A stretch of 64,000 bases of DNA from Noviherbaspirillum saxi (GTDB lineage Bacteria > Pseudomonadota > Gammaproteobacteria > Burkholderiales > Burkholderiaceae_D). A program made the position numbers and the translations under genes. Within the stretch, counting starts at the first letter, position 1. Each line of letters begins with the position of its first letter. This document shows positions 46,818 through 52,023 of this stretch, piece after piece. Under the pieces are notes generated by a model that was given only the letters and a program-made list of their open reading frames with translations, ran no database searches and had not been told where the DNA came from. The DNA is taken from NCBI RefSeq assembly GCF_003591035.1, contig NZ_QYUO01000003.1, positions 496,001-560,000 of the forward strand. Direction: 5' to 3'.

Positions 46818-47234
46818 ATGGGCGTCCTTAGCAATATCTTCAGCAAGATCTTTCCGTCCTCTCATGCAGCACCGGCACAAGCACCAACGAATACTGCGCC
46901 AGCTCCGGAAGCCACTGCGGCAAATCAAGCGGCCGCACCGGGGGTGCCGCCTTCCGCCGCCGCTCCAGCCATGAGCGAAGTCGATGTGGAAGCGGTCCTC
47001 AACGGACTCGCGCAAAAAAATCCGCAAAAGCTGAACTGGCGCAGTTCAATTGTGGATTTGTTGAAGCTGCTCGATCTGGACAACAGCCTCGCGGCTCGCA
47101 AAGAACTCGCGCAAGAACTTAATTACACCGGTGATATGAGCGATTCCGCGACGATGAATATCTGGCTGCATAAACAAGTGATGAACAAGCTTGCCGCAAA
47201 TGGCGGCAGGGTGCCGGCGGATTTGAAGGATTAG
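46818..47234 (+). CDS. DUF3597 domain protein
   Basis: A 138-residue protein with a short start (MGVLSNIFSKIFPSS), an Ala/Pro-rich linker (about 18-52) and a compact helical C-terminal domain (about 53-138: VDVEAVLNGLAQKNPQKLNW, then SSIVDLLKLLDLDNSLAARK and MNIWLHKQVMNKLA). This matches the DUF3597 family, whose function is unknown. A GGGAG stretch precedes the start. It converges with the zinc peptidase gene 60 bases away. Confidence 0.85.
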   Translation: MGVLSNIFSKIFPSSHAAPAQAPTNTAPAPEATAANQAAAPGVPPSAAAPAMSEVDVEAVLNGLAQKNPQKLNWRSSIVDLLKLLDLDNSLAARKELAQELNYTGDMSDSATMNIWLHKQVMNKLAANGGRVPADLKD

Positions 47235-47293: not shown

Positions 47294-49132
47294 TCATGTC
47301 CGCGCGATGGCTTTTATCTTGCGCTTCTTGTGCAAAACCTTGAAGTTCAGCTTTTGCGCATCCCTTTCTACCGCGTATAGCTGCTCTTCATGTCTCCGCT
47401 TCATGTCGTCGACGCGCTTCCTTATCAAATAACGAATGTTTCCCTGATTCCCAATTAGAACAGTCGCTCCACCGATAAAGCTTCGCCTTCCGTCATTGCG
47501 TTCTTGTGTGACTTCGGCGACAAGTTGACTGCGATACATGCCGTCGGACATGGCTTGGTGTGCAAGCCGAATCGACTCGACCACGACAGGACCGTAGCGC
47601 TGCCCGGGCTCGTGTAATCCGAACACGGCCAAACGTTCCGGCGACGCGGTAACGTATCGGCCGAGAGCATGTGCGCGTCGCTCATATTCGCTGGCGTTCG
47701 CGCGTTCGATTCCCGTATCCGTGAATCGCAGCAGGCTGAAACGTAAGGCATCGACAGGCGGCAAGTCGAGGTCCGGCGCTTTCCAGCGCAATGAATCTTC
47801 ACTGAGGTCGACAACATGGTCCAGTGCAATATCGCGTCTGCGGAACGCCTTGATCAATGCATCGCGGTAGCCAAGGCGGTCGTTGGCGACGATATCATGG
47901 TCAGCAGTAATCAGGGCTCGCAGGTATTCGCCGAAACGGATATCCACCGGCGGACAATAATCGATTGCGCGTATGCAGATACTGAGGAAATGCGCGGCGA
48001 GTTTGCCGACTTCGCTTGCCAGCAGCTGAAGCAGTTCAGCGGACATCTGTGTGCCTGTCTCGGCGCCGGTAAGCCTGGCAATTTTGAAAAACGGCTTTGC
48101 CTTGCGCTGATATACGCTCAGGAAGGCTTCGAAAATGGCGGATACCAGGATCGAGCCGCGATCATGCGATTCGGTGCAATGCGGGTCGGAATATTTGACC
48201 AGCTTGTCGCTCGGGGTATCGGGGCTCTCTTCCCGTTTCAATGCGCGCCGCAAGGCGCCGCCGATTTCCCCATTGATGGCTTCGCCGAATTGCTTTCCCA
48301 TTTCGAGCAGCAAGTCGACATTCAAGCCGCGCGTCGATTCTTCCAATGCCTGCACGACCAGTTCTTCGCGTGAAAAATGCATCAGCATCGCGATGATATC
48401 GGCAAAGCCTTCATGGAATGCGCCAACATCGATGTGGGTGTCATGGACGAATTGCGCGCGCATGCCGTCCAGCAAGGCGTGGCTTAGTTCATGCGCAATG
48501 ATGTCGCGCGAAAGTGCGGTAAAGACCAGTCCGCCGGGCAGTACATAAGGGGACGATGTCTTTTCCGCATGAAAGAATCCGAACTCCAGCGTGCCCGCTA
48601 CCGGATCGTAATAGGCGTTGGTATCACGGAAGGCCTGTGGCTTGAGGATGAGCGCAGTCGGTTTGCGGTCCGCAACGCGTTGCGCCGCCCATGGTCCCCA
48701 GGACGGATTGCGGCCAAGTGCCTTGCGAAACACGCCGTAGACTTCCTGACAAACCGCATACGTCATCTGCGCCGCGAAACGCGGATCGCCGGTGGAAGGC
48801 AGCAGTCCGGCGTTGAGCGCCATGGACAGTTCATTCAGGTCGAGCGGATGCGCAGCATAGCGTTCAGCCCGGCTGGGCATCCAGTCCATCGCCTGCACCA
48901 GGTCCGGATGCAGGGCACCGCCCGCCACCGCGAACAAGGCACCGCTCGGCCCCGGCAGCAGGCGCTCGTACGGCACCGCGATTTTCAGGACAGGTTCCCT
49001 GAGCCCGACGGTGGCCGGGTCCAGCGCATAGATCCATAACGATCGCGTTGCCGGTTCGCTTTCCGAGCTTGCATAGGGGGCAATGTAAGCCGGAAGCGTG
49101 ACGCGCGGACCCAGCGTATAAGGCAATGCCAT
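47294..49132 (-). CDS. Thermolysin-like zinc metallopeptidase
   Basis: A 612-residue protein without a signal peptide. It has a zinc motif HELSH (His214, Glu215, His218) followed 27 residues after the first His by HEGFADIIAML, where Glu241 is the likely third ligand and Asp245 fits the ExxxD pattern of M4-type gluzincins. Downstream segments SDPHCTESHDRGSILVSAIF and FLSICIRAIDYCPP resemble M4/M36-like domains. AAGGAG precedes the start. It lies 35 bases downstream of the caspase-like gene on the same strand, so they form one operon. Lacking a signal peptide, it probably acts in the cytoplasm, unusual for thermolysin relatives. The C-terminal ~100 residues are basic. Confidence 0.8.
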   Translation of the reverse strand: MALPYTLGPRVTLPAYIAPYASSESEPATRSLWIYALDPATVGLREPVLKIAVPYERLLPGPSGALFAVAGGALHPDLVQAMDWMPSRAERYAAHPLDLNELSMALNAGLLPSTGDPRFAAQMTYAVCQEVYGVFRKALGRNPSWGPWAAQRVADRKPTALILKPQAFRDTNAYYDPVAGTLEFGFFHAEKTSSPYVLPGGLVFTALSRDIIAHELSHALLDGMRAQFVHDTHIDVGAFHEGFADIIAMLMHFSREELVVQALEESTRGLNVDLLLEMGKQFGEAINGEIGGALRRALKREESPDTPSDKLVKYSDPHCTESHDRGSILVSAIFEAFLSVYQRKAKPFFKIARLTGAETGTQMSAELLQLLASEVGKLAAHFLSICIRAIDYCPPVDIRFGEYLRALITADHDIVANDRLGYRDALIKAFRRRDIALDHVVDLSEDSLRWKAPDLDLPPVDALRFSLLRFTDTGIERANASEYERRAHALGRYVTASPERLAVFGLHEPGQRYGPVVVESIRLAHQAMSDGMYRSQLVAEVTQERNDGRRSFIGGATVLIGNQGNIRYLIRKRVDDMKRRHEEQLYAVERDAQKLNFKVLHKKRKIKAIART

Positions 49133-49167: not shown

Positions 49168-52023
49168 CTACAGCCTGTCGATTTTTTCATCCAGCCTGTC
49201 CAGCCGTCGTGACAGTTCGCGCAAGGCTGTCACTACCGGTGCCATATTGCCGTCGTCCGGATTGGCAAGCAGTCCGTTTTCGGGAAAGGCGATTCCGCCC
49301 TTCATCATCGATGCGCCGCCCTGTGCTACACCATGCCTGAACAAGAGCTTGCCGCTTTTCAGCGCGGGATCGTTCAACCCCGGACTCTGTAGCGCATTGC
49401 CGCTGAATGCCCTGGCGATAGTGGCGGCCAGTTCGGCATAGCTGCTTGGCCTTTGACGGGCCGCTGCCAGCGCCTTGACCAGCTCGACCGTAAAGTCGCC
49501 GCGTCCGCCGTGCTCATAAGCGGATTGCTGATCGTTACAGGCCGCATAATGAAGCTCCCAGCCGGATACAGTGCCGATGCCCCGTCTGGAAATCTTGCGG
49601 ATGGCGCGGCCGCCAACGATCTGATCCGCGTTGGTGTACTTTGCCAGAAATGCCTGCATCAGGTTATCGGGCACTTTCATGTAACGGCTGTTTCTATCGC
49701 GCTGCGGCTGTTGCCTGTCAAACGCCGCGCGTGTAATGGTGCCGCAATGACAGCAGTCGGTGAACAGCACCAGTTCCAGGTTGCGATCGCGATACTGGTC
49801 CAATAGGCTGCCCACTTCATCGTCGAGAATGAATTCGCCGTTGTTGTAATCATACGGAACAAGCACTTCGTTATAGCCATCCGGTTCATCCGGATTAGGA
49901 AACTGGGTTCCATGGCCGGCATACTGGATCACGACCATGTCGCCGCTTCCTGCGCTATCCAGCAAAGCGGCAATGCGTGCAAGGATTGCGGCCCTCGTCG
50001 CGTCGCGATCAAGCAGCAATTCAACAGTAAAGCCCCATTCTTCCAGCGCCACGGCGGACGCGCGCGCATCGGCGACGCAGCCCGAGAGCGGCTGCGTGCT
50101 ATAGGAATCGATGCCTATGCACAGCGCGCGTCCGCCCCGGCCCGCAAGCTCCGACGATACAGGCTTCGGGGCAAGGGAAGCGATGTTCATCGCCGACGCA
50201 CGCTTTATTTCCCGCTCTCCGTCGCCCAAATGCGGAACGGGAATGGCGTCCGTGTCATTCAGACGAAGAATTCTACGGATGACGGAATTCATTGTCGGCG
50301 CATCATTGTCGAAGTCTCCGTGCGCATAGGCGCGGCTGGCGCTTCGACCGGAGATCTGCACGCTCGGACTCCAGATGACTTCGGCCTGTCGCGCATTACC
50401 GGATATGCCGAAGAATTCGTTCAGATGAGGATCGGCGCGGATCGACTCTTCCAGCCCAAGGATGGGTGTCGCATACGGCGGCGTCTCGCAGGCATTGCGC
50501 ACGAAGTACAACAGTGACTTGCGATACAAACCGATCACATCGTCCCGCAGCTCTTCATGTTGATACATGGTAAACATGGACAACTCGCCGATGCTCTTGC
50601 CGACCTGGTCCAGTAGCGTCGCCTTGAACAAGTCGATGCGTGCGGCCGGCGCCAGCAGGTTGACGGTTTTGATCGCCGGCGCCGCTGCCTGATCATTCAC
50701 GGCTTCCGCATGGAGCTGTGCCAGCAGGGTCAACAAATGACAGTGAAAGATCGCGCCCGCGCTATGCCCAATCGCATGCACTTCTACCTGCTTGTGTTGC
50801 CTGTCCTTGAAATGCCGGATCCACCGGACCAGCTTGTGCGCCATCAGCGCCGCCCCGCCCGCCTGGCCCGTTGCGCCTGCCGGCAGCGAAGCCATGAAGG
50901 CACTCGCCTTGATGCCGTCCCAGGTCGGTCGCCCGATAGTCGGGCCAAGCGTTGCTTCAAGAAACGGATCGGTAAAAAACTCGCGTCGCTGCAATGCGAG
51001 TTCGCGCCTCGAACCCTGCAGCAGCACTTCAATAAATCCGGTCTCCCATACGAAAAAAACAGGATAGACGCCGTTGCCCAGCCACCACTGGTAATCCCTC
51101 AGACACATGCTCAGGCCTACCGGCTCGTCCACCAGGCCGCCATGGGCAATCAGGGCAATACGGGGCGTCGCGCCCACTGTCAGTGCCCATGCATCCAGAT
51201 CGGCGATCAGGCGGTCCAGGTCGTGTTCCGAGGTCTGGTACCAGCCCCCCGATGAGAGATGCCCGCCCTGGAGGTTGACGACATGGCGGCGAAAAACTTC
51301 CATGTCGCCCGGAGTAAAACCTTCACGGGCATCGCGGCCGCCGGTTGCACCTCCGGTCCATGCATAGGACGCCTGACGCAGATCGTTAGGCGGCTCAGCA
51401 TTCTGCATCGGTATCCAGCCAGTGCCGTCCTGCGGCATGCCGAAGTGCGAAGCATAGGCACGCGCATGACTGGAAGGCGATCGACCGGCCGGTGCATCTT
51501 GCGCCTGCAAGCGTCCCCTGATTTTGCTTCTGAGAAGCTCCGCATTCAGGCCAGATCCCGGCGACGACCGGCCCGATATCATCTCGCTAGGGAACCTGAT
51601 AGTTTCTGCACCAAGCAGAAACCCCGTGCAGATTTCCGCGAGGACTTGATGCAAGACGGCTTCCTGCTTGCCGCACAAGGTATCACGACCATGGTCGAAA
51701 TCGCCTACCAGCGCGACTGCCATCGGCCCGTCCTGCAAGTCGCCATTGTGTCCGGCTACGCTCGCGGGAGGGCAGTCGAGATTGCGCGCGGTCCAGATCG
51801 AACCATCCGGTCCGAGATACAAATGCGCGGGCGCAGCTTGCCAGCCGAGAACGTCGCCATGGAATCGATCGATGGCGTGCATGGTTGCGGCGCCGGCCCA
51901 GTGCGATTGGCTGGGTCGCCAGGTGTGATGAAGATGGATTGCGTTGATGCGCCTTGTCCAGCCTCGGCGCAGTAATAGTCTGAGCTGCTCGATATCGATT
52001 TGCTGTACGTGGCCAATCATCAT
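49168..52023 (-). CDS. Three-domain protein: amidase/PGRP-like, serine-hydrolase-like and caspase-like
   Basis: A 951-residue protein without a signal peptide. AAAGGAGAA precedes ATG 52023. Domain 1 (about 20-150) resembles N-acetylmuramoyl-L-alanine amidase/PGRP: INAIHLHHTW (His32), VAGHNGD (His92) and MAVALVGDFD. Domain 2 (about 230-560) looks like an alpha/beta-hydrolase with the nucleophile elbow AIGHSAG (Ser421). Domain 3 (about 655-900) is a caspase-like C14 peptidase: ALCIGIDSYSTQPLSGCVAD, His704 in QYAGHGTQF and Cys757-Cys758 in LFTDCCHCG, with Cys758 at the metacaspase catalytic position. The last residues form a short coiled coil (LRELSRRLDRLDEKIDRL). It leads an operon with the zinc peptidase. 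Function unknown; see findings. Confidence 0.85.
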   Translation of the reverse strand: MMIGHVQQIDIEQLRLLLRRGWTRRINAIHLHHTWRPSQSHWAGAATMHAIDRFHGDVLGWQAAPAHLYLGPDGSIWTARNLDCPPASVAGHNGDLQDGPMAVALVGDFDHGRDTLCGKQEAVLHQVLAEICTGFLLGAETIRFPSEMISGRSSPGSGLNAELLRSKIRGRLQAQDAPAGRSPSSHARAYASHFGMPQDGTGWIPMQNAEPPNDLRQASYAWTGGATGGRDAREGFTPGDMEVFRRHVVNLQGGHLSSGGWYQTSEHDLDRLIADLDAWALTVGATPRIALIAHGGLVDEPVGLSMCLRDYQWWLGNGVYPVFFVWETGFIEVLLQGSRRELALQRREFFTDPFLEATLGPTIGRPTWDGIKASAFMASLPAGATGQAGGAALMAHKLVRWIRHFKDRQHKQVEVHAIGHSAGAIFHCHLLTLLAQLHAEAVNDQAAAPAIKTVNLLAPAARIDLFKATLLDQVGKSIGELSMFTMYQHEELRDDVIGLYRKSLLYFVRNACETPPYATPILGLEESIRADPHLNEFFGISGNARQAEVIWSPSVQISGRSASRAYAHGDFDNDAPTMNSVIRRILRLNDTDAIPVPHLGDGEREIKRASAMNIASLAPKPVSSELAGRGGRALCIGIDSYSTQPLSGCVADARASAVALEEWGFTVELLLDRDATRAAILARIAALLDSAGSGDMVVIQYAGHGTQFPNPDEPDGYNEVLVPYDYNNGEFILDDEVGSLLDQYRDRNLELVLFTDCCHCGTITRAAFDRQQPQRDRNSRYMKVPDNLMQAFLAKYTNADQIVGGRAIRKISRRGIGTVSGWELHYAACNDQQSAYEHGGRGDFTVELVKALAAARQRPSSYAELAATIARAFSGNALQSPGLNDPALKSGKLLFRHGVAQGGASMMKGGIAFPENGLLANPDDGNMAPVVTALRELSRRLDRLDEKIDRL

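Follow-up and report, generated by a model that had tools for sequence, protein, structure and literature searches.

The window analysed here is a 64,000-nt stretch of the Noviherbaspirillum saxi genome (NZ_QYUO01000003.1, positions 496,001-560,000), and the subject of this study is a pair of adjacent genes on its minus strand. The first encodes a protein of 951 amino acids (aa) in which a PGRP/Amidase_2-like (peptidoglycan-recognition) domain, an alpha/beta-hydrolase-like domain and a C14 caspase domain follow each other in a single chain. The second, which lies 35 nt past the caspase gene on the same strand and has its own GGAG 5 nt before the ATG, encodes an M4/thermolysin-like metallopeptidase. 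A first-pass annotation of this DNA had described the caspase gene; the adjacent metallopeptidase gene, absent from that annotation, speaks more strongly than anything else for a two-gene system. Of the 8000 best candidates in a protein search, 436 were relatives (the window protein counted), and the 120 that are listed are referred to below as the listed homologues. The features of the pair are given first.

49168..52023, minus strand: PGRP - alpha/beta-hydrolase-like - caspase protein, 951 aa; a second ATG at 52020 is suggested by homologues
51517..51981, minus strand: PGRP/Amidase_2-like domain, residues 15-169, by family profile against PDB (own Pfam match sub-threshold, 1e-4)
51928..51930, minus strand: His32, first PGRP zinc-ligand position, retained (alignment)
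51589..51591, minus strand: Pro145, second zinc-ligand position, His in 100/117 listed homologues with the domain (alignment)
51562..51564, minus strand: Ser154, third zinc-ligand position, Cys in the same 100/117 (alignment)
50227..51315, minus strand: alpha/beta-hydrolase-like domain, residues 237-599, by motif order (DUF900 0.0011 for the domain alone, sub-threshold)
50761..50763, minus strand: Ser421, GHSAG nucleophile, in 120/120 listed homologues
50542..50544, minus strand: Asp494, likely catalytic acid (role inferred), in 120/120 listed homologues
50320..50322, minus strand: His568, likely catalytic histidine (role inferred), in 120/120 listed homologues
49369..50139, minus strand: C14 caspase domain, residues 629-885 (PF00656 5.7e-20; PDB matches)
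49912..49914, minus strand: His704, caspase dyad, in 119/120 listed homologues, the remaining row gapped
49750..49752, minus strand: Cys758, caspase dyad (DCCHCG), in 119/120 listed homologues, the remaining row gapped
47294..49132, minus strand: M4/thermolysin-like metallopeptidase, 612 aa (HELSH 214-218, E241, D245, H323)

The coordinates 49168-52023 given in the first-pass annotation are right; the frame is on the minus strand and contains no internal stops, and S421 in GHSAG, H704 and C758 lie where that annotation had placed them. The motif AGGAG stands 2 nt 5' of the first ATG and 5 nt 5' of the second, and the consensus N-terminus of the family is MxG, with two close relatives beginning MIG... 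and MLG.... Because of this spacing and this consensus start, the second ATG at 52020, which gives a protein of 950 aa, is the likelier start. A scan for promoters and terminators found fewer sites than the mean of the shuffles.

Domains of the fused protein

In Pfam the 951-aa protein matches PF00656 above the cut-off (5.7e-20) and Amidase_2 (1e-4) and DUF900 (0.0046) below it, with no match to an Ig-like domain; in PADLOC a general caspase model is the sole match. The order amidase/PGRP, serine hydrolase, caspase in a single chain, as previously claimed, is supported by profile and motif evidence. When the same order was looked for elsewhere, the key positions of all three domains were found filled in 116 of the 120 listed homologues (window included), while three lack the PGRP domain and one the caspase, and therefore the arrangement is not considered a product of chance.

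A PGRP family profile built from 34 such domains was compared with the PDB, where its best matches are bumblebee PGRP-SA (4.5e-9), Drosophila PGRP-SD (2.6e-8) and PGRP-LB (~3e-8), and T7 lysozyme follows at 4.7e-6. By this profile similarity the domain belongs to PGRP/Amidase_2, the window protein alone staying below threshold (1e-4). In the alignment with 1oht (named CG14704 protein), which we take to be PGRP-LB, the His of HHT (H32 here), the His of RFH and the Cys of CPG stand opposite H42, H152 and C160, presumably the zinc ligands of that structure. The ligand positions of the family are 32, 145 and 154; His92, which had been proposed as an amidase ligand, sits in a conserved GHNG motif instead. 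The window protein does not have the catalytic His-His-Cys set (H32, P145, S154). Of the 120 listed homologues, 100 have H-H-C at these positions, 17 have lost the site and 3 lack the domain; all 17 site-losing proteins (window included) have Ser for Cys, and five of them also lack the first His. H-H-C is kept in 32 of 34 aligned loci, the exceptions being the window and locus L047.

Loss of the site has not been accompanied by loss of the domain. Many of its residues are invariant across 40 aligned rows, the site-less rows among them. In the 15 site-losing rows compared, mean identity is 73% in the PGRP domain, 83% in the hydrolase and 77% in the caspase, and the corresponding values in 16 sister rows with the zinc site are 74, 70 and 69%. 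Judged by these identities, the PGRP domain of the site-losing rows is under some relaxation and clear constraint, with no decay. Two independent losses among the closest relatives, favoured by a first tree (one loss in 1% of 200 bootstrap trees), are not maintained here; an independent loss is claimed for L047 only, which is placed elsewhere in the family. In one Burkholderiales locus (L079, 6293-10021) about 1243 aa in frame precede the PGRP domain and have no Pfam match at 0.001.

The middle domain is assigned as alpha/beta-hydrolase-like because its AHGG, GHSAG, LAPA and HGxFDxD blocks, whose S, D and H do not vary across 45 aligned hydrolase domains, come in the usual order of that fold; the succession of elbow, acid and His (S421-D494-H568) is present in 120/120 listed homologues. 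The domain alone scores 18.9 bits against the curated DUF900 (PF05990) cut-off of 20.5 and is not counted as a member; the family is touched by 6 of the 45 hydrolase domains, at best with 2e-4. Since the hydrolase domain is also found behind a papain-like C1 peptidase (L003, 1e-8; L009, 0.0018, sub-threshold) and behind CHAT (L066), it appears to be a module with changing company. Caspase-less frames of 620-780 aa carry it in L003, L004, L005, L008, L009 and L011. Longer single chains occur as well: DUF7363-CHAT-hydrolase-caspase in L066, and PGRP-hydrolase-caspase-CHAT in L029, where the CHAT match is sub-threshold.

The C-terminal domain is a member of the C14 caspase/metacaspase family, with 72.4 bits against a PF00656 cut-off of 21.4 and the dyad H704/C758. 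Its matches in the PDB are 3bij GSU0716 (1.3e-19), MCA2 (5.1e-14) and Metacaspase-4 (1.9e-13). D652 is aligned to MCA2 chain position 115, which we take to be the S1 Asp (native D95), and because of this alignment cleavage after Arg or Lys may be expected.

The absence of a signal peptide, also claimed before, was borne out by a simple, crude hydropathy scan, which found in the window protein neither a signal peptide nor a membrane segment. By the same scan a signal-like N-terminus is present in 0/120 caspase proteins and 0/120 M4-like proteins, and a weak internal hydrophobic stretch in 2/120 and 7/120, respectively. These results agree with a cytosolic location of both members of the pair.

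The metallopeptidase partner and the spread of the pair

The partner protein carries HELSH, HEGFAD and a later His, which are the motifs of a thermolysin-like gluzincin, and H214, E215, H218, E241, D245 and H323 are identical in 40/40 partner proteins. It is placed with M4/thermolysin by HExxH, the downstream Glu and the later His, and not by Pfam Peptidase_M4: the window partner has no Pfam match at all, Peptidase_M4 is weak in 4 of 32 partner-family members (best 0.011), and thermolysin is reached by profile with E ~1.

The home-made gene callers are imperfect in GC-rich DNA, and the first of them lost the caspase gene in several loci; for this reason neighbours were counted by profile hits on all open frames. 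An M4-like gene is next downstream on the same strand in 39 of 50 open reading frames (ORFs) with the full order (window included; in L060 the amidase domain is partial). Among these 39, the M4-like gene of L026 is broken up between several frames, and those of L036 and L040 are cut off by the contig end. Further pairs are found in genome G125, where the caspase protein is in two frames with the M4-like gene in row, and in a cyanobacterium with the M4-like gene split over two frames. The 31 hydrolase-caspase ORFs in which a PGRP domain was not detected (among them L059, which begins at a contig end) are arranged otherwise: an M4-like gene follows directly on the same strand in 4, a weakly matching one lies upstream on the other strand in 12, 14 have none and 1 has no room. 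In L068-L089 (Cryobacterium, Arthrobacter) a stand-alone caspase on the plus strand, a distant M4-like gene on the minus strand and a hydrolase-caspase gene on the plus strand occur together, and a nearby cluster is present in 12 loci, its scanned member (L068) being a flotillin/Band 7 protein.

The trees of the caspase protein and the M4-like protein, made with FastTree for 40 pairs (36 with the PGRP domain; branch supports not printed), share 21 of 37 splits, and their distances are correlated with a Mantel r of 0.80, the highest value in 2000 permutations being 0.38. On this comparison the caspase protein and the M4-like peptidase are co-inherited. The M4-like profile itself is rare. At class level it matches 4 of 276 genomes (window's included), and the caspase protein occurs in two of these four, the window's and G125; at phylum level it matches 12 of 397 genomes (window's included), several of them weakly.

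The full order is scattered over distant lineages. A genome scan with the single protein sequence gave no match; the scan with the alignment gave 308 loci, of which the best 80 were kept, near copies included (Polaromonas, Pseudomonas, Cryobacterium). The full order is present in Pseudomonadota, Desulfobacterota, Acidobacteriota, Armatimonadota, Chloroflexota, Bacteroidota (Hymenobacter), Chlorobiota and Gemmatimonadota, and also in a cyanobacterium, on a 1.2-Mb plasmid record. Among 370 class genomes, with at most two candidates scored per genome, the amidase and caspase ends were both matched only in the window's genome and, in two frames, in G125; none of 14 congeners matches both ends (at most eight candidates scored per genome). 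Because the paired tree joins Desulfobulbaceae with Nitrosomonas, and the window with Marinobacterium and Halioglobus, the gene pair has apparently moved horizontally. Five congener regions show no synteny with the DNA on either side of the window pair, and an insertion is not demonstrable by such an empty-site comparison. Zero matches were found in 50,697 phage records, two plasmid records matched at 1e-20 (one covering 92% of the protein), and 12 loci on viral contigs have matches limited to residues 562-907, the caspase end. A DUF3597 gene (window 46818-47234) converges on the metallopeptidase gene; it is present in 7 of 15 genus genomes (window's included), with different flanks in four congener regions.

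Other genes can take the place of the M4-like gene. In four Hymenobacter loci and in Azospirillum the next gene belongs to one cluster, whose scanned member (L054) combines a sub-threshold DUF7379 hydrolase with a CHAT protease; the Azospirillum chain itself ends in a sub-threshold CHAT match. In L055 (Magnetococcales) the next gene encodes a Tle1-like phospholipase. In L022 the domains scanned place a pYEATS gene behind the M4-like gene and, at the other end, an astacin-like gene ahead of the caspase gene; L031 has the same gene clusters in both places. The M4-like peptidase is also found in other surroundings: in L157 it is fused behind a subtilisin and followed by a metallo-beta-lactamase (MBL) protein, L158 has the same layout, and in L160 MBL and patatin genes follow the M4-like gene. 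Matches to LmuA/RTasMBL defence models were obtained with the MBL proteins of both L157 and L160, and these subtilisin/M4/MBL/patatin arrangements look like another protease-nuclease-lipase cassette, separate from the caspase pair. An MBL gene also lies upstream in L047, a locus with the full pair. Apart from host synteny in Cryobacterium and Hymenobacter, no third gene was seen to recur in the clusters.

Relation to described systems

The insect receptors PGRP-SA and PGRP-SD, the best solved matches of the PGRP profile, resemble the window protein in the zinc site as well: in the printed alignments SA is without the His and the Cys, and SD has Ser for Cys. By alignment, the PGRP site of the window protein is broken as in animal receptor PGRPs, with its hydrolase and caspase residues intact. 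The likeness is one of domain and ligand loss, not of descent of a pathway. Animal PGRP receptors are secreted or membrane-bound and are not known to be fused to a caspase. In insects, according to the accessible part of one account, the caspase DREDD is recruited once PGRP receptors have been mobilised (PMC6626034).

The statement of the first-pass annotation that no system with this order had been described holds in part. Four Amidase_2-metacaspase sequences, one of them from Polaromonas, were reported in 2012 (Asplund-Samuelsson et al., PMC3501461), and Polaromonas also contributes six loci of the window protein's family to the best 80. Compared by description, both groups have Amidase_2 and a caspase in a single chain; they differ in that the accessible text of that survey mentions no serine hydrolase (a GDSL-lipase match in Chitinophaga excepted) and no metallopeptidase partner, and this partner is not named with the proteolysis domains that it records in 23 metacaspase operons. 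In the open-access library searched, no report was found of a hydrolase between the two domains or of a metallopeptidase partner, nor any description of the PGRP-hydrolase-caspase and metallopeptidase assembly, and the 2012 paper was the only one found for the two Pfam names together. Amidases are not mentioned in the accessible parts of PMC8195603 and PMC4933709.

In the VMAP ternary conflict systems, as far as the accessible text goes, a caspase is said to come invariably with an alpha/beta-hydrolase encoded next to it (Kaur et al. 2020, PMC7159879). That hydrolase is likened to the window hydrolase by description and not by homology comparison. There the hydrolase-caspase pair is described as serving a MoxR-vWA-VMAP core, whereas the window has hydrolase and caspase in one chain, supplemented by a PGRP domain and an M4-like partner; MoxR, vWA and VMAP are present neither in the seven window proteins scanned nor in the 25 most frequent neighbour families (148 ORFs). 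The Canu caspase-nuclease and the Hachiman/AVAST nuclease-protease pairs, in the accessible part of PMC12799240, likewise have a protease and a second enzyme in adjacent genes, and proteases that activate MBL nucleases are reported there. Canu-type MBL neighbours also stand beside M4 relatives elsewhere and beside L047, but the window partner is a metallopeptidase and not an MBL nuclease, and two MBL queries (1e-5) gave zero matches in the window and one (L047) in 94 loci, so the pair is not assigned to Canu. The parts and themes are already known from amidase-metacaspase fusions (2012) and from hydrolase-caspase pairing (2020).

Possible function of the pair

We tentatively propose, with a probability somewhat short of even, that the two genes form a horizontally spread cytosolic conflict or cell-suicide module, a function read from sequence. 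In its favour are the frequent pairing with the otherwise rare M4-like gene, the agreement of the two trees, the kept hydrolase, caspase and metallopeptidase residues, the conservation of the PGRP domain after loss of its zinc site, the patchy distribution, the exchange of partner genes and the defence-type company of M4 relatives elsewhere. During an attack on the wall by a phage lysin, an antibiotic or a predator, muropeptides or wall precursors would enter the cytosol and be bound by the PGRP domain; anhydro-muropeptides imported for recycling are one example. Most relatives may also cut the fragments they bind, and the window protein would bind only. Binding would free the metacaspase-type protease, a predicted Arg/Lys cutter, which could activate the M4-like peptidase or be activated by it; the serine hydrolase might attack a lipid or another ester, and the attacked cell would arrest growth or die. 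The amidase-type domain is taken as a sensor and not a weapon because the wall-cutting site is lost while the executor residues are intact, as in receptor PGRPs. The first-pass annotation had suggested a sensor-executor; this reading is plausible and has gained some support, because of the three zinc ligands of the PGRP domain two are gone, yet the domain is conserved and the executor residues are intact.

Several observations weigh against this proposal. The PGRP domain was not detected in the actinobacterial relatives, and G031, of the same family, combines an amidase part with a hydrolase part, the caspase being absent. Eleven of the 50 full-order loci have no M4-like gene even though the contig continues for at least 1.5 kb. 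Among the site-losing rows conservation is somewhat lower in the PGRP domain than in the hydrolase and the caspase, and the 17 listed losses may represent a single event (smaller tree, approximately unbiased (AU) test, p 0.149). The hydrolase domain has no significant sequence match among solved structures. The route by which peptidoglycan pieces enter the cytosol is assumed, and the AmpG-like permease in the window genome scores below the family cut-off. Finally, the 148 neighbour ORFs (100-600 aa; longer ones were dropped) show no defence enrichment, since eight PADLOC models have one member each at 1e-15, a count made without a random-gene control.

Three other explanations have to be weighed against the proposed module. 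The three destructive activities in a single chain could belong to a delivered weapon, injected by a secretion machine, in which the amidase acts on the wall, a lipase on the membrane and the caspase on proteins; the accessible text of the 2012 survey calls an Amidase_2-metacaspase joined to a lipase in Chitinophaga 'what seems to be a highly destructive weapon' (PMC3501461), and the Tle1-like phospholipase gene adjoining L055 points the same way. Such delivery is nonetheless quite improbable, as the hydropathy scan found a signal-like N-terminus in none of the 120 caspase proteins, and the 25 commonest of the 136 Pfam families from the neighbour ORFs include none for secretion. The usual neighbour is moreover a peptidase and not an immunity-type gene, and the wall-cutting site is the very one missing from the window protein and from 16 listed relatives, with the other residues kept. 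As to genes or domains for delivery by the type VI secretion system (T6SS) or the extracellular contractile injection system (eCIS), the seven window proteins scanned and those 25 families contain none, and a Tle1-like gene stands beside one locus.

The retained H-H-C site in 100 of the 117 listed members with the domain, the missing export signal and the lack of recurring defence neighbours would also suit a device of the healthy cell for stress proteolysis or wall recycling, in which an AmpD-like PGRP trims or senses muropeptides and the proteases tune regulators without killing. This is unlikely given a very patchy and apparently horizontal distribution, several hydrolases in a single chain and partner genes swapped among conflict-type enzymes. 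Rather unlikely, too, is a PGRP domain that is a mere protein- or substrate-binding scaffold, with a phage protein, a nucleotide or the state of the membrane as the trigger. The zinc site is indeed dispensable, and there are relatives that retain the hydrolase and have a papain-like domain, CHAT or nothing detected in the place of the PGRP; on the other hand, the many PGRP residues that are invariant even in site-less rows fit a conserved ligand groove, which is no proof of one.

The cytosolic conflict module proposed above can be stated in a more specific form, which is doubtful as a whole: a bacterial pattern-recognition receptor of PGRP type, cytosolic and wired directly to a caspase, which in some lineages would have exchanged its amidase activity for a pure receptor role, as the receptor PGRPs of animals did, and by which fragments from a wall breach would start a caspase-metallopeptidase-lipase suicide. 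If this is true, a domain for peptidoglycan recognition would be coupled to a death-type protease in bacteria of at least eight phyla, and insect immunity links the same two parts. It would provide a testable case of a bacterial cell that senses damage to its own wall from inside, and a cytosolic thermolysin-like family would join the conflict proteases. The partner gene is without a Pfam family, and PADLOC recognised the caspase protein by nothing beyond its general caspase model. Even with a different trigger, the conserved pair of caspase protein and M4-like peptidase is a clear experimental target.

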